From IMG/VR virus record IMGVR_UViG_3300025853_000194, positions 1 through 42,150 of that record: a stretch of DNA of 42,150 nt; one strand, 5' to 3'. The DNA comes from a virus. Positions 13,913 through 31,495 of the stretch are shown here, piece after piece (positions within the stretch are counted from its first letter, which is position 1; each line of letters begins with the position of its first letter). Under the pieces are notes generated by a model that was given only the letters and a program-made list of their open reading frames with translations, searched no databases and was not told where the DNA came from. The translations under genes were made by a program, and so were the position numbers.

Positions 13913-14467
13913 ATGGCTGGTTTATCACATTATCAAAATTCATTAAATGCAGTGAATAAGTTTGAACCTGTATTCCTCAATCAGTTTGAGGTAACCGTGG
14001 TTCCTCCTTCTGCTGTAGCTGGTGGTCCTGTTTTATTGGAGCATGTTGTCTCTGTTGCAGGACTGGACGTTGATAAAAATCCTGGCTTCGTTTCTCAAAA
14101 GTATAAGTTTGCTAAAAGGAACTATGCGGGAGGTAAACCTGATACAACTACATTGGATCTTGGGGTAAAATTCACAGTAAACCTTGATGAGGCAAACTCG
14201 ATGTATGTATTTAAAACCTTAAGACAATGGACGGATCTGATCTATAATCCAATCACGGGTGCTCAGGGTATAAAAGCGGACTACACTGGAACTATAGTTA
14301 TATCTGTGTTCAACAAGAATGGCGATGTTTTTAGAAGAATTACATGTAAGGATTGTTTCCCTTTAAAAGCTATAGACCCCATGGAGCTCGAGTACATCAA
14401 CGGTACTAACCTCTATGAAATAAATATGACTTGGGCAGTTGATTACTGGCAGGATCTATTCCTATAA
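13913..14467 (+). CDS. Tail tube protein A, T4 gp19-like
   Basis: The 184-residue protein has the gp19 layout: MAGLSHYQNSLN start, FEPVFLNQFEV strand, a YKFAKRNYAGGKPD loop, LRQWTDLIYNPITGAQG, a GTIVISVFNKNGDVFRRI hairpin, and the ITWAVDYWQDLFL-type C-terminal strand. Subunits stack as hexamers to form the DNA conduit inside the sheath. The gene follows the sheath directly and is followed after 16 bases by a paralog of nearly the same length. Confidence 0.9.
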   Translation: MAGLSHYQNSLNAVNKFEPVFLNQFEVTVVPPSAVAGGPVLLEHVVSVAGLDVDKNPGFVSQKYKFAKRNYAGGKPDTTTLDLGVKFTVNLDEANSMYVFKTLRQWTDLIYNPITGAQGIKADYTGTIVISVFNKNGDVFRRITCKDCFPLKAIDPMELEYINGTNLYEINMTWAVDYWQDLFL

Positions 14468-14483
14468 AAAAACAGAAGCATAA

Positions 14484-15062
14484 ATGGCAGGTTTACCACA
14501 TTTTAATAATTCAAAAGCAGCTAGAAATAACTACGAACCAGTATTTCTAAACCAGTTTGAGGTCTTAATCACGCCCCCTTCTGCGATAACTGCTGCGAAC
14601 ACTACTTTTAACGGGGAGAGCATTTTAACACAACAAGTTAAAAATATAAGTGCGCTCCAGGTGGATATCCAACCCAGTGCTCCTGTAACACAGTACTATA
14701 AGTTTGCTGAAAGGAGATATGCTGGCGGTGAGCCATCAACTTCTGATGTACAGTTTACTGCATCTTTTGAGGTAAATCTCAGCGATAGTAACTCTATGAC
14801 GCTCTATAAGATACTGAGACAATGGTCTGATCTTATCTACAACCCATTAACTGGTGCCATGGGGCTTAAAAGGGATTATGTGGGCACAATGGTGGTATCC
14901 ATTTTCAATAAGCAGGGTGATGTCTTTAGAAGAATTACCTTAAATAATTGCTTCCCTGTAGAACCTATAAACCCAATGAATCTAAGTTATGACACTGGTG
15001 ATGCAATCTACACCATTGATACCACTTGGAAGTCTGATTACTGGAAGGACCTCTTCCTATAA
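14484..15062 (+). CDS. Tail tube protein B, tandem gp19 paralog
   Basis: The 192-residue protein matches the preceding tube protein along its whole length: MAGLPHFNNSK start, YEPVFLNQFEV, YKFAERRYAGGEP, LRQWSDLIYNPLTGAMG, FNKQGDVFRRIT, and TTWKSDYWKDLFL. An extra ~8-residue insertion near residue 35-45 (ANTTFNGESILTQQ) lengthens the first loop. It may be a second major tube component or a specialised tube-end or baseplate-proximal ring, as gp19-fold proteins gp48 and gp54 are in T4. High conservation of the inter-subunit strands argues that both copies are functional. Confidence 0.88.
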   Translation: MAGLPHFNNSKAARNNYEPVFLNQFEVLITPPSAITAANTTFNGESILTQQVKNISALQVDIQPSAPVTQYYKFAERRYAGGEPSTSDVQFTASFEVNLSDSNSMTLYKILRQWSDLIYNPLTGAMGLKRDYVGTMVVSIFNKQGDVFRRITLNNCFPVEPINPMNLSYDTGDAIYTIDTTWKSDYWKDLFL

Positions 15063-15154: not shown

Positions 15155-16225
15155 ATGAAAGATTCTTTATCACCCGAAGATATCCTAAGGCAGAAAGAGA
15201 TAAAAGGAGGGGTTAAATACGACAATCCCACCGATGCTCCGGTAACTGATGTTGAGGATTTAGGAGATGTGAGTAATGTTTACCAGAGGGATAGCGAAAA
15301 ATTAGACACCAATAATATCCCACCTAATCTAGGAAACGCTAATCCAACCCCGATAGAACCTGCAGTTGGTGTCAATGTAAATTCAATGGAGCTTGGATGG
15401 AAAAATCTCCCAGTTTCTATGCTTCCTTCTGGTGGTATGTTTTATCCCGAGGGTGCTAAGATAGCGATTAGGCCCGCAGAGGTGAGAGAGATTAGACTTT
15501 TTTCCACTATAGACGAGGGAGATATGGTTGATTTGGATACAAAACTCAACTTCATTCTGGAATCTTGCTCTCGAGTTAAATTTAATCAAGCCGGGACGGT
15601 AAGCTATCTGGACCTAAAGAAGGAAGATAGATTTTTTATAATTATGGCTATCCGGGATCTGACATTCGTAAAAGGTGAAAATCGGATCATAATAAAGCCT
15701 AGAAAAAAATGCACTACCAAAGGGTGTGAGGGAATAGAGGCTATAGAATTAAGAACTGGAGTCCTTAACAGCTATGAGCTGGATCCAAGACTAATGGAAT
15801 ATTATTCATCCACGGATAGAGCATTTGTATTTAATATAAGGAGATTAAATAAGAGGATAAGGATGACGATCCCGTCGATTGGTATTTCTAATATCATATC
15901 TGATTGGGTTACCAGAATGGTAAAATCTGGCAGAGATGTGGACGAGAGTTTTATCAAAATAGCTCCTTTTTATTTTGATGACTGGAGATCATTAAACGAT
16001 AATGTCATAAATGAAACCATGATAGAATCCAACAATTGGAGCAAGGAGGAGTTTTCGATGTATTTCCAGCTAGCAGATATGATTAAGGTTGGAACCAATC
16101 TTGACGTTAAAATAAAATGTGATAAATGCAGTGATGGGGAGGTCACTGCGCCCATATACTTTCCCGACGGGTTCAGATCTCTTTTCGTTATTTCAGATAT
16201 CTTTGGAGAACTACTTGGATCTTAA
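15155..16225 (+). CDS. Baseplate hub-associated protein, T4 gp26-like family
   Basis: The protein has 356 residues. A disordered acidic N-terminus (1-75) is followed by LPVSMLPSGGMFYPEGAKIAIRPAEVREIRLFSTID (86-120), the signature of the T4 gp26-type baseplate family (T4_baseplate), and a mostly helical C-terminal half. Two Cys pairs, C186/C191 and C322/C325, could bind one metal. T4 gp26 is shorter (208 residues). Relatives of this protein help assemble the baseplate hub. The gene has a GGAG just before ATG 15155 and overlaps the next short frame. Confidence 0.7.
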   Translation: MKDSLSPEDILRQKEIKGGVKYDNPTDAPVTDVEDLGDVSNVYQRDSEKLDTNNIPPNLGNANPTPIEPAVGVNVNSMELGWKNLPVSMLPSGGMFYPEGAKIAIRPAEVREIRLFSTIDEGDMVDLDTKLNFILESCSRVKFNQAGTVSYLDLKKEDRFFIIMAIRDLTFVKGENRIIIKPRKKCTTKGCEGIEAIELRTGVLNSYELDPRLMEYYSSTDRAFVFNIRRLNKRIRMTIPSIGISNIISDWVTRMVKSGRDVDESFIKIAPFYFDDWRSLNDNVINETMIESNNWSKEEFSMYFQLADMIKVGTNLDVKIKCDKCSDGEVTAPIYFPDGFRSLFVISDIFGELLGS

Positions 16226-16394
16226 GTTCCGCCTTTGGAAGGAGCATGGACTTGATCCAGGTTGGATAGAGAGCATACCTTTCTATGAGTATCAGATATG
16301 GATAGAGAAACTCAATCTTCATATAGAGAGGGAAAACAAGAAAGCCATGGAGGAATCTGGTAAGTCCGAGTTATTTAGTTTCTCGAATGGCTAG
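16215..16394 (+). CDS. Small baseplate-assembly companion ORF overlapping gp26-like gene
   Basis: The product has 59 residues from TTG 16215 (LDLKFRLWKEHGLDPGWIESIPFYEYQIWIEKLN...). The DPGWIESIPFYEYQIWIEKLN pattern recalls short partners found next to gp26-like or chaperone genes in other myoviruses. The frame is open further upstream (GTG 16119, ATG 16134), but those residues lie antiphase over the conserved end of the upstream gene. TTG 16215 has GGAGAA six to nine bases upstream and overlaps the previous stop by 11 bases, so translational coupling is the simplest start. Alternatively, a +1 frameshift at the upstream stop (TCT TAA G) would fuse the two, as tail-assembly chaperones often are. 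Confidence 0.55.
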   Translation: MDLKFRLWKEHGLDPGWIESIPFYEYQIWIEKLNLHIERENKKAMEESGKSELFSFSNG

Positions 16395-16437: not shown

Positions 16438-18048
16438 TTGACTCAACCGGATACAAATAAGATGCTGAAGGAAATGTCCGATTTAACTCGGAATATGGAT
16501 GGACTTTTCCGTGAGCTTAAAGAAAGTAACGCCAACTTAAAGAAGATAGGTGAGAGCGTAGGTGATGTTGCTGAAGATATTTCTAAGAAAGACGGGGATC
16601 AGAAGGATAAGACCGAGGATATTTTTCGGGGGTTTACTGAGAGTATCATTAAATCCTTAGATAATAACAACAATGATATAGTTAGTACATTGAGCAAGAG
16701 TCTCAATGATAGCGTTAATCAATTTGCTAAAAGTATACCAGGTCAGATTGCATCTGTAAAGAGCAATGTTCCTATTGATTATGCCTCTTTGATAGGCGGC
16801 AATGGTATAAAGAATAGGGTTTCTGGTATAGCCTCTAAGATACCAGGCCTTAAAACGGGGGGTGAATCCTCGAAAAGCGGACTTGCTGTAGTCGGTGAAG
16901 AAGGGCCGGAGCTGGTTTCCCTTAATGTGGGGGATCAGGTGGTATCCAATGAAAAATTGGAATCTGTTGTTTCTGGTGGCAATCCTTCCCTTGATGCTTT
17001 AACCCAGCAGATATCCGATTCAGAGAAAGCAAGAAACGAGAGACAGGCATCTATAGAGGAAGCTATTCTCCAGGGTTCTAATACTGAGAGAGAACGTGAG
17101 AGCCAAATACCATTGGCAAAACAAGCAACTAAATTGATAACTGATGAGTCTCTTAGGAGTCAATTTTTGGATTATGCAAGAACAGAGCTTGATAGGAAAG
17201 ATCGGGATGAGCTTTCGTCCGATGAGGACTATTTTATGTCTGAATTTGATTACTGGAAAAGTTCGAAGGATGACGCCTATTTTACTGAGGAGGAAATAGC
17301 AAATATACGTCAAGGAAAATCTCTGAATAGTGCTCAGGATAATATGTATGATCCTAAGGGGGGAAAAGAAGATACTATGGGTGATTTGATCACTGATGAC
17401 ACCAAGATTAGAAGTGAGGAGAATTCGCCGGATGATTTATCCGATAGAGGATCTGAGATTATGAAGGAGAGGAGGAAACTATCGGCTATGTTCAAAAGGA
17501 AGCCTAAAAAAAAGAAGAATTCGAATGATGTGATCGAGAACCTTATGAATCCGTCTAACGAGATGGAATCCTCTGTATCTCAGCTGAATGAATCACAGAA
17601 TTCTACAAATACTGGTAATGAATCCGTATCATCTTCTCCTGAGTTAAAAAAACCGGAAGTGGCTGGTGGTTCTGAATTGGAAAAAAGCCAGAATGAGCTA
17701 AAGGTATCTGATGTAGAGTCACTTACAGCTAGATTAAGAGCTAAGCTAGAAGCAAAACAAGGAGAAATGGACAGCTCAAAAAAATCCGCGGATTCACTAC
17801 CCGCTGAGAGCTCCTCTTCTGGATCAACCACTACTGGAAGCTCTAGCGGTAGTGGAAATTCTAAAGGTGGTTCGTCATCATCGGAACAGCAGGGAATAAA
17901 GCAGATTATAGATTCCATGAATAGCCCACAGTCTAGCAAAGAATTGGGCGATATCAGGGCACTCCTCGTTAGCATCCTAGGAGTTTTAAAAGGTCCATTG
18001 AGCGCTACTAGGGATCAGCCTTACAGACCTCATTCGAATCAGTTCTGA
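16438..18048 (+). CDS. Tape-measure-like / baseplate virion protein
   Basis: The protein has 536 residues from TTG 16438; ATG 16462 is a weaker alternative. The N-terminus is helical (LKEMSDLTRNMDGLFRELKES). Residues about 140-172 contain KTGGESSKSGLAVVGEEGPELVSLNVGDQVVS, the GG..GLAxVGExGPELV motif common in tail tape-measure proteins. The rest is highly charged, with a basic patch (KRKPKKKK, about 353-360), a Ser/Gly-rich linker (about 460-485) and a C-terminal helix. It follows gp26-like genes, as gp29-type tape-measure and hub genes do. The length is near T4 gp29 (590), but low-complexity content makes this a family guess rather than a match. Confidence 0.45.
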   Translation: MTQPDTNKMLKEMSDLTRNMDGLFRELKESNANLKKIGESVGDVAEDISKKDGDQKDKTEDIFRGFTESIIKSLDNNNNDIVSTLSKSLNDSVNQFAKSIPGQIASVKSNVPIDYASLIGGNGIKNRVSGIASKIPGLKTGGESSKSGLAVVGEEGPELVSLNVGDQVVSNEKLESVVSGGNPSLDALTQQISDSEKARNERQASIEEAILQGSNTERERESQIPLAKQATKLITDESLRSQFLDYARTELDRKDRDELSSDEDYFMSEFDYWKSSKDDAYFTEEEIANIRQGKSLNSAQDNMYDPKGGKEDTMGDLITDDTKIRSEENSPDDLSDRGSEIMKERRKLSAMFKRKPKKKKNSNDVIENLMNPSNEMESSVSQLNESQNSTNTGNESVSSSPELKKPEVAGGSELEKSQNELKVSDVESLTARLRAKLEAKQGEMDSSKKSADSLPAESSSSGSTTTGSSSGSGNSKGGSSSSEQQGIKQIIDSMNSPQSSKELGDIRALLVSILGVLKGPLSATRDQPYRPHSNQF

Positions 18049-23819: not shown

Positions 23820-26552
23820 ATGGATTTACTCAATCAATTGAAAACTCTTAGGGATACTACCACATCGCCCGAGGTAAAATCAATCTGTGAGTCACATATA
23901 CACAGAATTGAATCTGGAGACGTCTCCAACTTGGACGAAAGTAAAATACTGGAGTCTGTACAAAATGCCGAAACGGATGTAAATGAACCTGGTAAAAACC
24001 CAATAGATATGATAAGGAATGAACAACTCGACAGATCTAAGGCTGCTGCTCAGAAGCTTATGGAGTCTTGGGGAGGAATAGGGACCATGAGGTCGTCTAC
24101 CGCAGGATCTTATGTTGATGGCAAAAAAGAGGAGACGAAGAACGATGTTGTTGATATATCGGAGAGTCTAAGAGAGGTTGCTAAGAAAGACCCTGCAGCA
24201 AAAGCTTTCGTTGATTCTCAGAGGGTTAACAATATGGGAATTTATGAGTCCATTTTAGAAATAAAGGGATCTGGTATTTATGAACACCCTCATGTGAAGG
24301 TACTTTGCGAGAAGTACTATAATTTAATTAAGGAGAGAGGAATACCGGAATTTTTGATTGCTGAAGCATTCATATCTGAAATATCCAATTTTACATGGGA
24401 TGATAAGATTAAGAAGTTTTACGAGTCTTTAAAGAATGTGGTAGATTCTTTAAGACCTGAGATTGAGGTATCCAAGGCAATCCATAATATCAAGAATAAT
24501 GCTGGATCTGATTTCTATTCTCCAGTTATAGAGTCTTTGAATAAATGGATGGTGTCTGAGAATAAATCGGTTTCTTTACTTTCCAAGGAAATCTCTAGAT
24601 GGGCTTTTAACCCTGCTGTACGGAACTTGGTTAATACCCTATCATTGATGGAAAATAACGAGGAGAAGCTTTCTATTCCGGTAAGTTCTGGGAATTCTTC
24701 AGTTAGTAGAATTTTCTCCCCTGTTCATGTAGGTGGAGGAAAAACAGTCTTTAGTATAGGTAGCAATATCTTCGAAGGATCTAATGAGGGACTAAGAAGA
24801 TTGACCAAGAATGAATATCAGAATCTACCTGAGGATTACAGGGCTTTGCTTGAATCTTTCTATTCATCATATGTTAAGGTCAATGAAAGAGGGTTAAACG
24901 TTTATGTTGGTGACAAGGTGTTTAAAATGGTGGAAGAGAATGAGCAGGTAAAGCTTTATAATCGATCTGCTGAAATGAATACTACGAACAAGAGTAATCT
25001 TGCTAAACAGATAGCACTGGAAATATCCGGAAGCTTTGGTGTGAATGAATCAAAGGTAGTCTCTGACATCATCAGGCTCTTGGAAAATTATGATAATATA
25101 GTAGAACTTGATTTTGCTAAAAAAATAGACTCCAAGGTATTCGAGGGAGCTTCTGTTAACCTGGTAAAATGGAACGGTAAAATATTCCTGAATAGAATAA
25201 ACACCGCGATGAATGAGAATTCCATATACGAGGTAAACGGAACACAGGCAACCAAGATGGTTAAGGAATTCTTAAAGTATGACATCTCCGAGGGACTAAC
25301 CGAATTTCTAGAGGGAGAGGACAGAATTAAGTCAATTATGCTGAACGATAGGAAGCAGATCATGGAGAATATCGCGATCGTAGAGACTGAAATTTCTAAG
25401 ATACAAGGTCTAATGGAGAATAATCCACTATATGCCAATTCAGAAGAAATAGAGAGAGCTCAACACCTTCTCGAGACCGAGCTAAAGTCACTCAGAAAGA
25501 AGTGGAAAACCGTAAACGAGGAGATTGAAAAAATAGAGAATGGTCAGAAAGAGCAAGTAGACAATATTAATGAGGATTCTCAATTTACCATTGGTGACTA
25601 TGTTAAAGTTAAGGAGTCCGGAAATACTGGTAAAATCATATCTGTTGATAGCACTACAGGATCATACACTGTCTTAATGGACAATGGAAGAACTGGAGAT
25701 TTTAGATTGGATGAGATTGTTAATATAGAAGATGCTCTTAAAGATGCTGGAGAAGAAAACCAAGAGGTTGCAGATTCTCAGGAGGAAGAAATCAAGGAAA
25801 ATGAATCCAAAGAATCCCTAGCTGAAGCAGCTACACCAGCTGCTACTCTGAAGGCTAATACCTCTCAAGCTCCATATGATAAGAAAGAACAGGAAGAAAC
25901 TAGCAAGAAGGATATAGAGGACGAGAAAAGAGCTAATCTAGAGGAAGCACCGGAAGGAACTGAAAAAGGAACAAAATTTGAGGTTAAACTAAAAGATTCT
26001 CTAGTTGATAAGATCGGATATAACGTAAACGAAAATGACGATGCCCCTGCGGAAGGACAAGAGCCAATGGCTACAGCTCCTTCTGATTCAAACAGCGAAG
26101 TTTCTGAAGCAGACATAGAAAATGTGGATCAGAATTTAGCGGAGGCCCCGGGAGGCAGACAACATGCAGATTATGATGTTAAGGTAGTTAAAGCAGAGAA
26201 AGGTGGAAAAGCTGATATAGTTAACACTGATCCGGAATTTGCTTCAGCGCCTGGTGATGGGACTGACAAAGAGTTACACCACGAAGTTAAAGGCGAAATG
26301 GGATATAACCTTGACGAAGCTGCTGATATCGAGAAGGTAAATCAGAATCTTGCTGAAGCTCCAGGTGGGAGAACGGAAGCTGATTATGACGTTGAGGTAG
26401 TTAAAGCTGAGAAGAAAGCTGCTGAGATTATGAAGACTAATCAGGAATTAGCAGAAGCCCCTTCAGCTGGTACCGAAGCAGAAACTGACGTAGAGGTTAA
26501 CAAAGAAATGGGTTATAATCTAGACGAAAGCGAGGAGTCAAAAAAAAACTAA
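23820..26552 (+). CDS. Large repeat-tailed virion-associated protein, unknown (0-frame product)
   Basis: The 0-frame product has 910 residues. It is helical and charged at 1-580, with a coiled-coil-like stretch near 505-580. At about 588-636 is a small SH3/KOW-like beta domain (FTIGDYVKVKESGNTGKIISVD...). The tail (about 700-905) has five imperfect units built on [EL]AEAPGG/SAPGDG...VKAEK/...MGYNLDE. No enzyme motif is visible. The size and its place before head genes suggest an internal head or scaffold-like protein, which is inference. The stop follows A AAA AAC, and a -1 shift there would add about 60 residues containing two more APxG units (see 26540-26731). Two promoter-like boxes precede ATG 23820. 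Confidence 0.6.
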   Translation: MDLLNQLKTLRDTTTSPEVKSICESHIHRIESGDVSNLDESKILESVQNAETDVNEPGKNPIDMIRNEQLDRSKAAAQKLMESWGGIGTMRSSTAGSYVDGKKEETKNDVVDISESLREVAKKDPAAKAFVDSQRVNNMGIYESILEIKGSGIYEHPHVKVLCEKYYNLIKERGIPEFLIAEAFISEISNFTWDDKIKKFYESLKNVVDSLRPEIEVSKAIHNIKNNAGSDFYSPVIESLNKWMVSENKSVSLLSKEISRWAFNPAVRNLVNTLSLMENNEEKLSIPVSSGNSSVSRIFSPVHVGGGKTVFSIGSNIFEGSNEGLRRLTKNEYQNLPEDYRALLESFYSSYVKVNERGLNVYVGDKVFKMVEENEQVKLYNRSAEMNTTNKSNLAKQIALEISGSFGVNESKVVSDIIRLLENYDNIVELDFAKKIDSKVFEGASVNLVKWNGKIFLNRINTAMNENSIYEVNGTQATKMVKEFLKYDISEGLTEFLEGEDRIKSIMLNDRKQIMENIAIVETEISKIQGLMENNPLYANSEEIERAQHLLETELKSLRKKWKTVNEEIEKIENGQKEQVDNINEDSQFTIGDYVKVKESGNTGKIISVDSTTGSYTVLMDNGRTGDFRLDEIVNIEDALKDAGEENQEVADSQEEEIKENESKESLAEAATPAATLKANTSQAPYDKKEQEETSKKDIEDEKRANLEEAPEGTEKGTKFEVKLKDSLVDKIGYNVNENDDAPAEGQEPMATAPSDSNSEVSEADIENVDQNLAEAPGGRQHADYDVKVVKAEKGGKADIVNTDPEFASAPGDGTDKELHHEVKGEMGYNLDEAADIEKVNQNLAEAPGGRTEADYDVEVVKAEKKAAEIMKTNQELAEAPSAGTEAETDVEVNKEMGYNLDESEESKKN
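25932..26546 (+). repeat. C-terminal imperfect amino-acid repeats in the 910-residue protein
   Basis: Five units share an APG/APxG core: EEAPEGTEKG, LAEAPGGRQHADYDV, FASAPGDGTDKE, LAEAPGGRTEADYDV and LAEAPSAGTEAETDV. Three are followed by an IGYN/MGYN-LDE phrase. The DNA copies have diverged, so the protein repeat is old. Confidence 0.7.
26540..26552 (+). promoter_or_regulatory. Candidate -1 ribosomal frameshift site (A AAA AAC, then TAA)
   Basis: Nine A residues (26540-26548) are followed by C and the 0-frame stop TAA (26550-26552). In the 0-frame the codons are AAA AAA AAC TAA, so A-AAA-AAC at 26543-26549 is a canonical X XXY YYZ slippery heptamer directly before the stop. The -1 frame is then open to 26731. 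A missing A in the assembly is the main alternative. Confidence 0.6.
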
Positions 26553-26731
26553 AAAAAATCCTAAGTAGGGTTTGGGCTTTTGCTCCAACCGGTAAGGATC
26601 AGAATGAGAAACCGGAAGCTTTTGTAGATAGTATAGAAGATAAAATGAGCGTAGCTCCAGACGGTAAGAAAAAACCATCTGAGGCTTCGCTCATTTCTGT
26701 TTCTGATGATGCTGAAGAAGAAAAGGCTTAA
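26549..26731 (+). CDS. -1 frame extension of the 910-residue protein
   Basis: The -1 frame is open from the slippery site to TAA at 26729-26731 and encodes 60 residues (LKKILSRVWAFAPTG..., KMSVAPDGKKKPSE..., ending AEEEKA). It contains two further APxGK units (FAPTGK and VAPDGK) like those in the 0-frame tail, so its coding character and relatedness are strong. It has no good start of its own. Expression by frameshifting would yield a fusion of about 969 residues with a more basic tail. Confidence 0.6.
   Translation, partial: LKKILSRVWAFAPTGKDQNEKPEAFVDSIEDKMSVAPDGKKKPSEASLISVSDDAEEEKA
26643..26696 (+). other. Long imperfect hairpin within the extension
   Basis: AAATGAGCG (26643-26651) is perfectly complementary to CGCTCATTT (26688-26696). 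Inside, AGACGGT can pair with ACCATCT (one mismatch), and AGCTCC partly with GAGGCT, leaving an A-rich apical loop. There is no following T-run. It could be an RNA stability or processing element at the end of this mRNA. Confidence 0.5.
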
Positions 26732-26790: not shown

Positions 26791-27147
26791 ATGGCTAATT
26801 ACGTAAAAAACGCTGATCTCATGAAGGCTATCTTAGAGTCTAAGGAGAAAGGTGAACTTACTCCTGCCACTATAGAGATGTTTTCGCTGATGATACAAGG
26901 AATATCTAAAAAAATGGCTTATAGGGATCCTGACGATAAAGCAGACTGTATGGCATTTGCGATGGAGGATTTATGTAAATATTGGAACAGGTTTAATCCT
27001 GAAAAATCCAACAATCCCTTTGCTTATTACACGCAGATAGCTAAAAATGGTTTTGCCAAAGGTTGGAAGAAAATACATCCTCCTAAAGCTCCCAAAATGA
27101 TACCTTTCTCATATATCACTGGTGATGACAACTCTTACAACGTGTAG
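26791..27147 (+). CDS. Late transcription sigma factor, T4 gp55-like (short)
   Basis: The 118-residue protein aligns by eye with T4 gp55: NYVKNADLMKAILESK (T4 NYVNNKELLQAIIDWK), IEMFSLMIQGISKKMAYRD (T4 IGLAIMLIAEGLSKRFNF), and FNPEKSNNPFAYYTQIAKNGFAKGWKK (T4 [27 protein letters not shown]). This is the sigma-2-like core that lets RNA polymerase recognise the late promoter box. T4 gp55 has 185 residues; this protein stops about 65 residues earlier and lacks an obvious C-terminal sliding-clamp-binding motif. It is followed 8 bases later by the gp4 gene. Confidence 0.8.
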   Translation: MANYVKNADLMKAILESKEKGELTPATIEMFSLMIQGISKKMAYRDPDDKADCMAFAMEDLCKYWNRFNPEKSNNPFAYYTQIAKNGFAKGWKKIHPPKAPKMIPFSYITGDDNSYNV

Positions 27148-28278: not shown

Positions 28279-29892
28279 ATGGCAGGATTTACTGAAAGTC
28301 CACAGGGAAATCCCATATTTCAAAGGATTCGTGACTCCGTAAAGGGGCTAAGTAACTTTGGGATGCGCTATGGTGATATGGTTATTAAAAACTCCCAGGC
28401 TATAGGACAAACCGAGGCGGAGTTTATGAAGAAGGGTAATATAGAGGATGAAACCATGCTCTATTCTCTCGGACGTCAGGATACTTCAACGCGACAATTC
28501 ATAGGTTATTATGATAAGGACTACGTGGGAAAGAGAGACTACCTTCGTAAGTTCTCACTCAACCCTGAGATTGAATATATCATCGATACAATTTGTGACG
28601 AGTCAATTACTTACGACCCATACAACTTTTTTGCATATCCGGCTTTTCTGAATCTTACCGATGTTAAGGATAAAGTAAAAGATAGGATAGAATCTAACTA
28701 TAAGAAGCTGTATGATATGTTTGGCTTTGCTGATGATATAACAGCTTGGCAATACTTTAGACAACTTATAATAGATGGATTTTTAGCATTTGAGATTGTC
28801 TATGATGATAGTGGCAAAGAGATTATAGGATTTAAGGAATTAGATTCAACTACGCTCATGCCCTCCGTTGAAAAACAGAAGGATGGAACTTGGTTGAATG
28901 TATGGTATCAATATCCGAAAGACCAGAATAAGAGGAGGATGCTATATGATTCCCAGGTAATATACATTTCATATGCCAAGGGTAATTCGGTATCTAGGGT
29001 AAGCTATACTGAAAGGCTTATTAGACCATATAATGTATTAAGAATAATTGAATATACAAGGGTGATATGGTCTGTCATGAATGCTTCATTTAGAATGAAG
29101 ATGACAATACCTATTGGTTCTAGGTCCCCACAGAAGTCCATGCAAACCCTGGGGGAACTTATGAGTATTTATAAGGAGGATATAAGGTTTAATGACGAAA
29201 GTGGTGAATTGACAGTTGATGGTAGACCTAAGATACAGTTTTATAAAAACTATCTGATGCCTTCTGGTGTAAATGGTACACCTCAGATAGAACCCCTTAA
29301 TAATGCAGGACCTAATCTTAATGACCCACAGCCACTAGCATATTTCTTTGATAAATTAGTGCAGGAATCTAAAATACCTTTCTCTAGATTCCAGGGTCCA
29401 GATGGTGGTTCAATTGGAAATTATAGTAACGGTGCGGAAGGTCTCGATAAGGAGGAGATAAGGTTTTCTAAATTTATTAGCAGGCTAAGATCAATTTTTC
29501 AGGATATATTGATTAAACCGCTCTGGATCCAGATGTGTAGGGATTTTCCAGAGCTTGAGAAAGATTATCTGTTTAAAAGCCAACTTGGTCTAAATTTCGT
29601 TTCCGATAACCCATTCAAGGTTAACCAAGAGATAGAAATCATGCTAAAGAAGAAGGAATCCATTGATTCCCTTTACGCTCTCACTGATGATGACGAGAAA
29701 CCCTTCTTCTCACTTGCATATCTGATTGAGAGCTATCTAGGTATGACTGATGATGATATAAAAGCTAATAAAGAGGCTAAAGATAAAAGAGCTGAGGAGA
29801 AAAAGAAGGAGGAAGAGAAAAATAAGGAAGAGGGTGGAGAAGAATCTGGGGAATCCGCTCCAGAGGAGGAAGAAACCCCACCTGAAACCTAA
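28279..29892 (+). CDS. Portal vertex protein A, T4 gp20-like
   Basis: The 537-residue protein has the gp20-type portal layout. It shows IKNSQAIGQTEAEF near the N-terminus, KDYVGKRDYLRKFSLNPEIEYIIDTICDE, AWQYFRQLIIDGFLAFEIVYD, QVIYISYAKG, a stem segment (TLGELMSIYKEDIRFND ... QFYKNYLMP), FFDKLVQESKIPFSRF, and LRSIFQDILIKPLWIQMCRDFP. The C-terminal 45 residues are a Glu/Lys-rich tail. Portals are dodecameric rings that initiate head assembly and let DNA pass. The next gene is a full-length paralog. A GATATATAGTG box lies about 60 bases upstream, inside the previous gene. Confidence 0.88.
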   Translation: MAGFTESPQGNPIFQRIRDSVKGLSNFGMRYGDMVIKNSQAIGQTEAEFMKKGNIEDETMLYSLGRQDTSTRQFIGYYDKDYVGKRDYLRKFSLNPEIEYIIDTICDESITYDPYNFFAYPAFLNLTDVKDKVKDRIESNYKKLYDMFGFADDITAWQYFRQLIIDGFLAFEIVYDDSGKEIIGFKELDSTTLMPSVEKQKDGTWLNVWYQYPKDQNKRRMLYDSQVIYISYAKGNSVSRVSYTERLIRPYNVLRIIEYTRVIWSVMNASFRMKMTIPIGSRSPQKSMQTLGELMSIYKEDIRFNDESGELTVDGRPKIQFYKNYLMPSGVNGTPQIEPLNNAGPNLNDPQPLAYFFDKLVQESKIPFSRFQGPDGGSIGNYSNGAEGLDKEEIRFSKFISRLRSIFQDILIKPLWIQMCRDFPELEKDYLFKSQLGLNFVSDNPFKVNQEIEIMLKKKESIDSLYALTDDDEKPFFSLAYLIESYLGMTDDDIKANKEAKDKRAEEKKKEEEKNKEEGGEESGESAPEEEETPPET

Positions 29893-29902
29893 GAAAGAAT
29901 AG

Positions 29903-31495
29903 ATGGCAGGATTTCTAGATAACATACAGGAGAGAACATTCTTAGGTAATCTGTACCGCAACCTGAGTCGTATTGGAAGATTTGGTATGAAGTATGAGGA
30001 TATGGTAATTCGTAATTCTCAAGCTATAGGACAGACTGAGTCTAATTTTTTCGATCAGCAAGGAACTGGATTTACTGAGAATTCTGCTTTTAGGTGGACT
30101 CTTGGATACCAGGACACTAAGATTAGAAAGTATATCGCATATTTTGATAAGGATTATGTAGGTAAGAGAGATTTTTTGCGAAAGTTTTCTCTAAATGGTG
30201 AGATAGATTTTATACTTGACACGCTTACTGACGATGCGATAAATTATGACGATAAGAATTTCTTTTCGTATGCTAAAGTAGCCAATACTGAGCTCAAGGA
30301 GGAAGTTTTGGATGGTATAGATAGCAGATTTAGGAATCTTTATATGATGTTTGGCTTCCAGCAATCCATATTGGCTTGGCAATATTTTAGACAGTTCTTA
30401 ATTGATGGATTTTTAGCCTTTGAGATAGTATATTCTACTGATGGGAAAAAAATAGTTGGTTTTAAAGAGTTAGACCCCACTTCCCTTCAACCTGCCACGG
30501 AGCCTCAAGAAAACGGGGAGTTCAAGCAGATTTGGATCCAATATCCCGAGGATAATAAAATGACGAGAAAGCTTAGGGATGAGCAGATAATTTATCTGTC
30601 TTACGCTAAAGGGAACACGATTTCCAGGGTTAGCTATGTCGAAAGGCTTATAAGATCATATAACATACTGAGAATAATGGAGAATACCAGAGTCATATGG
30701 AATGTCATGAATGCTTCATATAGACTTAAATTTGTTATTCCTGTTGGTACTCAATCTCCTCAAAAAGCTATGAACACTCTGGGTCAGTTAATGTCTATCT
30801 ATAAAGAGGATATAGAGCTTAATGATTTTTCGGGGGAGCTTACAGTAAATGGAAGACCTAAAGTCCAATTCTATAAGAATTACCTATTCCCTGAAAAGGA
30901 TGGACAATCCCCTGAGATTTCCACATTGGATCCAGCAGGACCTGATTTCAATGTCATGGAAAATGTTGTTTACTTCTACAATAAGCTTAAATTGGATTCG
31001 AAGATTCCTTATGCTAGGTTCTCTTTCCGTGGTGGTACTCCAGCCAATTATCAAATAAGCATAGACCAGCTGGAGAGGGATGAGATAAGATATGAGAAAT
31101 TTCTAACCAGACTAAGGTCCATTTTCCAGGAGATATTAATCAAGCCATTGTACATACAGATGTGCTTGGACTATCCACACTTGGCTAAGGATCGGTCATT
31201 CAAAGTTAACCTTGGACTTAACTTTATGAGGGAGAATGTATTCGAGCAGTTCATACAATTGCAAAACTATACTAAAAGAGCTTCTTTCGTAAATGATCTC
31301 GGGGGTATGAATCAGAAGATAGGCGAGGAAGAGGTTCCTTATTTTGATAAAGAATTCCTGATAAAGAGGTGGATGGGATTAACCATGGATGAGTATAAGA
31401 AAAACGAGCAATATAAAGAGCGTGAAGATAAAGAAGCTGAGAAGAAGGCTAAGGAATCCGGTGGAGAGGAACCGGAGGGTGAATTTACGCTATAA
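29903..31495 (+). CDS. Portal vertex protein B, tandem gp20 paralog
   Basis: The 530-residue protein is collinear with portal A: IRNSQAIGQTESNF, KDYVGKRDFLRKFSLNGEIDFILDTL, AWQYFRQFLIDGFLAFEIVYS, QIIYLSYAKGNTISRVSYVERLIR, TLGQLMSIYKEDIELND, FYNKLKLDSKIPYARF and LRSIFQEILIKPLYIQMC. All blocks are retained and neither copy is truncated, which argues against decay. Differences concentrate in the middle insertion and the acidic tail. A hetero-dodecameric portal or two alternative portals are possible. It lies 10 bases after portal A. Confidence 0.88.
   Translation: MAGFLDNIQERTFLGNLYRNLSRIGRFGMKYEDMVIRNSQAIGQTESNFFDQQGTGFTENSAFRWTLGYQDTKIRKYIAYFDKDYVGKRDFLRKFSLNGEIDFILDTLTDDAINYDDKNFFSYAKVANTELKEEVLDGIDSRFRNLYMMFGFQQSILAWQYFRQFLIDGFLAFEIVYSTDGKKIVGFKELDPTSLQPATEPQENGEFKQIWIQYPEDNKMTRKLRDEQIIYLSYAKGNTISRVSYVERLIRSYNILRIMENTRVIWNVMNASYRLKFVIPVGTQSPQKAMNTLGQLMSIYKEDIELNDFSGELTVNGRPKVQFYKNYLFPEKDGQSPEISTLDPAGPDFNVMENVVYFYNKLKLDSKIPYARFSFRGGTPANYQISIDQLERDEIRYEKFLTRLRSIFQEILIKPLYIQMCLDYPHLAKDRSFKVNLGLNFMRENVFEQFIQLQNYTKRASFVNDLGGMNQKIGEEEVPYFDKEFLIKRWMGLTMDEYKKNEQYKEREDKEAEKKAKESGGEEPEGEFTL

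Follow-up and report, generated by a model that had tools for sequence, protein, structure and literature searches.

Genomic context of the locus

The window, which is the whole analysed stretch of viral DNA (42,150 nucleotides), carries T4-like late genes for a large terminase, a tail sheath, two tail-tube-like proteins, a tape-measure-like protein and a gp55-like late sigma factor. A gp4-like head closure gene and two gp20-type portal genes were also found. Together, the gp20 portal, contractile sheath, gp55-like sigma factor, gp4-like head closure protein and large terminase are markers of a T4-like myovirus. The top-ranked matches of the portal proteins were uncultured phages of 462-735 kb and Prevotella Lak phages, and contigs of up to 434 kb carry relatives of the gene described below; the window is therefore probably part of the genome of a huge phage of the T4-like kind. 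Judged from the portal relatives, a Bacteroidota host is plausible. Scans of genome contigs for a host found none and the plasmid search was negative.

The gene under study has 910 codons in the ORF list and its translation, and occupies positions 23820-26552 of the plus strand, on which the slip site, the extension, the hairpin and the sigma gene described below are also found. The tape-measure-like ORF (16438-18048) is situated upstream of it, with nine ORFs in between. The next gene downstream (26791-27147) encodes by homology a T4 gp55-like late sigma factor of 118 aa and served as the anchor for fetching relatives. Directly 3' of the sigma gene, two huge phages possess long ORFs (L006 7786-9399, 537 aa; L115 8423-10375, 650 aa) which by eye look like homing endonucleases.

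Some other arrangements were observed in the window. The T4-like portal genes stand side by side (28279-31495), show 52% mutual identity and are both strong Pfam Portal_T4 matches, as if the pair had been formed by duplication. The tail-tube-like genes (13913-15062) are also an adjoining pair matching the same PHROGs. Just upstream of the tape-measure-like gene, ORF 15155-16225 is overlapped in the +1 frame by ORF 16119-16394, which matches the PHROG 'baseplate hub assembly catalyst' (T4 gp51-like, E 2e-4). The overlap and its frame were also found in L120 at 62% identity. This overlap (15155-16394) may mark another recoding site, or else the overlapping gene may be started independently.

A run of nine adenines and an extension in the -1 frame

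The 910-codon gene ends with GAG GAG TCA AAA AAA AAC TAA. The nine adenines (A9) occupy positions 26540-26548 and are the sole plus-strand A-run of at least nine in the window. The 0-frame stop TAA (26550-26552) is placed directly 3' of this slip site. Two overlapping heptamers are in frame at the site, A_AAA_AAA (26540-26546) and A_AAA_AAC (26543-26549). The -1 frame is open for 60 codons and closes with a TAA at 26729-26731. This extension (26549-26731), which is marked out by its sequence, conservation and pN/pS, reads LKKILSRVWAFAPTGKDQNEKPEAFVDSIEDKMSVAPDGKKKPSEASLISVSDDAEEEKA and contains two AP units, FAPTGK and VAPDGK. An earlier note, written from the letters of the window, had given the same coordinates, codons and A9 position, the same open -1 frame and two such units, and all of these were confirmed. 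It had also called the site a canonical -1 slippery site. A_AAA_AAC is present, but the second heptamer A_AAA_AAA had not been named, and a run kept at nine or more, with no stimulator found, fits RNA-polymerase slippage at least as well as the ribosome implied by the term. The claim that the extension has no start codon of its own was borne out in substance. Codons 1-15 lack ATG, GTG and TTG in all 70 distinct sequences, but the window has an ATG at 26645-26647, which is codon 33 of the extension and the earliest start in it.

Conservation of the run and of the -1 phase among relatives

Relatives were collected from public virome contigs by means of the downstream sigma gene, a DNA pattern, a divergent member and a family profile. 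In the first set, the extension was present in 109 of 115 sequences, representing 45 distinct groups. The run was visible in 44 of these (L009 is a contig end with no run to score) and the phase was -1 in 44/44. The full set comprised 213 loci with the core C-terminus. Eleven were cut before the stop, while the other 202 gave 70 distinct 230-nt gene ends, which are kin and hence not 70 independent tests. A9 was found in 68 of the distinct ends and A10 in two (L075/76 and L144). Runs of seven or eight A's were seen in 0/70, and the run was present at every locus whose gene end could be read. Across 527 kb of coding sequence surveyed at the related loci, five other A9 runs and none longer were counted; as A9 is so rare elsewhere and A9 or A10 is present in every one of the 70 ends, its occurrence at the gene end exceeds chance.

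The extension was in the -1 phase in all 69 distinct sequences which read past the stop, and fused in frame in none of them (L004 and L215 end just after the stop, and the extension is not visible in these). The independent contigs sharing A9 and the -1 phase showed 40-99% protein identity. Among the 67 sequences in the standard register, the last codon was AAC in 49, AAT in 13 and AAG in 5, and the stop was TAA in 64 and TGA in 3. In L056 the run is placed one base earlier in the codons (GAA AAA AAA ACC); it is still A9 with the extension still in -1, and the 0-frame continues for about a dozen codons past the run. The 0-frame stop was situated at most 3 nt from the run in 69/70. ATG, GTG and TTG were all absent from the extension in 23 of 69 readable sequences (24/70 including the truncated L004), and the first start codon in it was ATG in 42/70. 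The homolog comparison proposed in the earlier note thus found the A-run kept in 70/70 and the extension in -1 phase in 69/69, and this supports its alternative of programmed frameshifting with two tail lengths. What the sequence shows directly is the site with its conservation, the -1 phase of the extension and the selection described below. As the run is kept in all relatives examined, always with an extension of the same phase, A9 is almost certainly a programmed -1 recoding site, by which a short and a long protein would be made from one gene.

Selection on the extension and on the run

Among the 45 distinct extensions, pN was below pS in 233/233 usable pairs, with medians of 0.153 and 0.525, respectively; pairs were counted only when pS was below 0.6 with at least six changes, and they are not independent of one another. 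By this substitution pattern, the extension is under purifying selection. Most sequences carry a motif near FAPxxxxQNxxPxxFVDxxxGKxSxAPxGK, from which the L038 clade deviates most, in the middle of the motif. The part of the extension 5' of the ATG is also conserved at the protein level.

Comparison of the window with the 88%-identical L002 revealed 311 synonymous and 107 non-synonymous differences among the 910 codons, and none in the last 10 codons. Codon changes at the site were counted on a tree of 37 tips (length 7.0), of which 35 were used, with L056 and L075 set aside for their register. MAFFT misplaced the end of L070, so codons at the site were counted with the stop as the reference point. 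Codon -4, which precedes Lys-Lys, underwent at least six changes among TCA, TTA, CTA and GTA (Ser, Leu and Val) with no third-base step, against a median of 11 third-base steps per column on the same tree (737 columns). Both Lys codons at the site were AAA in 35/35 members, while other conserved Lys columns had AAA in 43-86%. All 67 sequences in the standard register have A as the third base of codon -4, and AAC, AAT or AAG as their last codon. The register variants (L056, and L075 and L144 with A10) also retain a run of at least nine. Since the third base of codon -4 stayed fixed through at least six changes and the Lys codons are AAA throughout, the length of the run looks like what selection holds at this site.

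RNA structure near the site and inside the extension

No consensus pairs were found from -30 to +75 around the site by RNAalifold with 31 sequences, in which pseudoknots were not modelled, and single-sequence folds of this region gave modest z-scores. A 7-bp hairpin near the site (AAATCCT/AGGGTTT) is visible in the sequence of the window by itself and was not taken to be conserved, as the 31 sequences gave no consensus pair. A conserved purine-rich element resembling a Shine-Dalgarno sequence was not found upstream, where the window has GAGGAG and the L038 clade has CCTGAA.

A strong hairpin is located further downstream, inside the extension (26643-26696). It lies in a stretch whose predicted fold is much more stable than that of shuffled versions (z -5.1, none of 200 as good). 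In 28 relatives (25 distinct) with 19 pairs counted, 86.7% of the cells were paired. Four pairs had changed on both sides, a number which 57/500 shuffles reach, while the 29 cells with changes on both sides were reached by 0/500. The covariation was 0.214 against 0.114 for shuffled alignments and at most 0.090 when the structure was slid. The clearest pair is C-G in 12, U-A in 12 and U-G in one of the distinct sequences, and both changes are silent in the extension frame. The search pattern for the hairpin matched in 28 of 46 distinct sequences; among the other 18, L010 was unreadable because its contig starts near the run. The hairpin is missing from the SFAPTGK clade and from the deep clade. 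Being absent in whole clades, it is not needed for the frameshift, and at about 105 nt from the run it was rejected as a stimulator. It may be a leaky terminator or an RNA-processing element.

Domain organization of the 910-aa protein

In the AlphaFold model, the protein is composed of a core (about 113-490 aa), a coiled coil (491-578 aa), an SH3/KOW/Tudor-like domain (about 587-643 aa) and an acidic tail (646-910 aa). The coiled coil and the SH3-like domain were also recognized by coiled-coil and SH3-like matches, and the motif count of the tail is eight 'AP' motifs of the type N-L-A-x-A-P-G, to which the extension adds two. The mean pLDDT is 62. The core mostly scores 70-90 with a mixed fold, while the tail is of low confidence from residue 646 and, going by the model, presumably disordered. 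No Pfam or PHROG family of known function was found for the protein. It matched one PHROG of unknown function (E 0.00097), and a Pfam SH3-like match fell below the cut-off. There was no sequence match in the PDB and no fold match at E<=0.001. Among predicted viral structures, seven matched at E<=0.001, including A0A5S9HXP5 of Tenacibaculum phage PTm1; six of these are uncharacterised and one is annotated as DNA ligase. The VIA-align matches fall mostly on the coiled coil and on the SH3-like domain, and barely test the core. No gene of comparable length was found near the PTm1 portal in the 30 kb inspected.

The regions used for comparison were LR756504, LR756502, Lak-B5 and MA9V-2. Homologues of the core without the AP tail were found in LR756500 (617 aa), LR756504 (435 aa) and LR756502 (427 aa), and on this ground the AP tail and the slip site seem to be a joint acquisition of this lineage. 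The T4 prohead protease cuts the motif LxEA between E and A. Such sites in the tail repeats (LAEAPGG) were rejected, since the E is not conserved and is replaced by Q, K or S in other members. Two variations were observed around the tail. In L066 and L070 an unrelated insert of roughly 30-60 aa precedes IDESEESKKN, while the slip site and the ten residues at the end are retained; judged from these two sequences, the end of the AP gene behaves as if it were a cassette. In the L038 clade, extra genes are situated between the AP gene and the sigma gene (L038 3918-5917 and relatives), and the last of them ends with ...KAPEPGEKSWF, a tail resembling the AP motif. The gene neighbourhood suggests that the 910-aa protein is a virion or assembly protein.

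Proposed mechanism and alternative explanations

We propose that most transcripts would give the 910-aa form, while a minority would gain one A by RNA-polymerase slippage (A9 to A10) and so join the -1 frame. The A10 transcripts would be translated into a form of about 970 aa, S907-KKK-LKKILSRVWAFAP..., having about two extra AP motifs and a conserved acidic end. By analogy with recoding in other phages and in secretion machines, both forms may be needed in a certain ratio. Judged from the comparisons above, programmed recoding with two products from one late gene, mostly by RNA-polymerase slippage, is moderately probable. We infer that the slip occurs, that the polymerase more than the ribosome is its main agent, and that the ratio is required. 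The polymerase is placed ahead of the ribosome because none of the 70 ends has a run shorter than nine and no conserved structure is found close by.

Homopolymer runs are prone to errors, and the other alternative of the earlier note was a single ORF broken by a one-base error of assembly; such an error, or one of sequencing, is excluded, as the identical A9 and -1 phase recur in independent contigs down to 40% protein identity and fused forms are found in 0/69. It is also very improbable that the locus holds two separate genes, with the extension translated by re-initiation or from an internal ATG. The window offers such an ATG (26645-26647) and ATG is the first start of the extension in 42/70, but one third of the readable extensions (23/69) have no start codon at all, none lies in the first 15 codons anywhere, and the protein is conserved also 5' of the ATG. 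Phase variation, by which changes of the run length in DNA would switch the long form on and off, is hardly more credible: a genome in the fused state is found in 0/69 and the off state would have to be maintained by selection throughout, even though replication slippage does mutate poly-A runs according to PMC3711429.

The same two products could also be formed by -1 ribosomal frameshifting on A_AAA_AAA and/or A_AAA_AAC/T/G, aided by the nearby downstream stop, which we regard as possible, though on the doubtful side. A_AAA_AAA is in frame in 70/70 and A_AAA_AAC/T/G in 67, and in 69/70 no more than 3 nt separate the run from the 0-frame stop. A_AAA_AAA is open to slippage of lysyl-tRNA and would alone account for the conserved A of codon -4, and a need for Asn or Lys in the protein could explain why the last codon keeps its AA, which goes against the argument from run length. 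In IS1, ribosomes are proven to use A_AAA_AAC, with no stimulator established in the account of PMC4066793. However, seven A's (A_AAA_AAA) or six and one further base (A_AAA_AAN) would suffice for the ribosome, and yet 0/70 have seven or eight; a conserved structure or Shine-Dalgarno-like element was also not found near the site. Moreover, AAC is the dominant last codon here (49/67), although E. coli shifts frame far less readily on A_AAA_AAC than on A_AAA_AAG, as outlined in PMC5009743. The A9 of Thermus dnaX acts through polymerase slippage (PMC3711429). In one gene cluster described in the same source, efficiency rose with the length of the run, from 10% with 7 A's to 40% with 9 and 63% with 11, a series which by itself does not separate polymerase from ribosome.

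Comparison with known recoding systems

Short and long forms of a virion protein are known from gene 10A/10B of T7. The capsid and tail-shaft frameshifts of Listeria phage PSA likewise let one late gene encode a virion protein in two lengths (PMC5009743), and a capsid/tail-shaft case of Lactobacillus phage A2 is given in the reference list of that source. The PSA, A2 and T7 cases involve other proteins and other slip sites; a place of the 910-aa protein in the virion is suggested by its neighbours. The tail chaperones of the lambda G/GT type are also encoded at a late phage gene end with a frameshift and a minor, C-terminally longer form (PMC5009743). Unlike them, the 23820-26552 gene does not adjoin the tape-measure gene, is much larger and has A9/A10 as its slip site.

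Transcriptional slippage is known from tssM1 of Citrobacter rodentium (A11) and dnaX of Thermus thermophilus (A9), which likewise have poly-A near the 0-frame stop and products of two lengths. In tssM1 the C-terminus of the long form is read in a different frame, and the two forms are both required, as is their ratio (PMC4256274). These are bacterial genes with experimentally shown slippage, whereas the phage site is known from its sequence; on the other hand, a whole phage family retains its run, in no case fused. Transcriptional slippage was also suggested for a poly-A frameshift in a methyltransferase gene, that of Campylobacter phage CPt10 (PMC2853527). That suggestion concerns one genome and a different gene, while the present site is kept over 70 distinct sequences. 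Apart from it, no published case of such conserved polymerase slippage in phages was found in the literature, which was surveyed mostly in outline.

Significance of the site

The kind of recoding is known, while the gene family and its poly-A form in these phages are new to us. The recoding site at this locus is new and, within its gene family in huge T4-like phages, strongly conserved. Gene callers will stop at the 0-frame stop, and the long form is likely absent from annotations. The protein is probably a counted part of an assembly, because the phages never merge the two lengths. The apparent selection on run length provides a natural experiment able to separate slippage by the polymerase from slippage by the ribosome. 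It may well be that this huge-phage family sets the ratio of the two lengths of a late, probably structural, protein by programmed polymerase slippage, with the run kept at nine to ten A's despite deep divergence, a chance we rate as even. If true, it would be a conserved transcriptional counterpart to the frameshifts which ribosomes make in the head and tail genes of phages.
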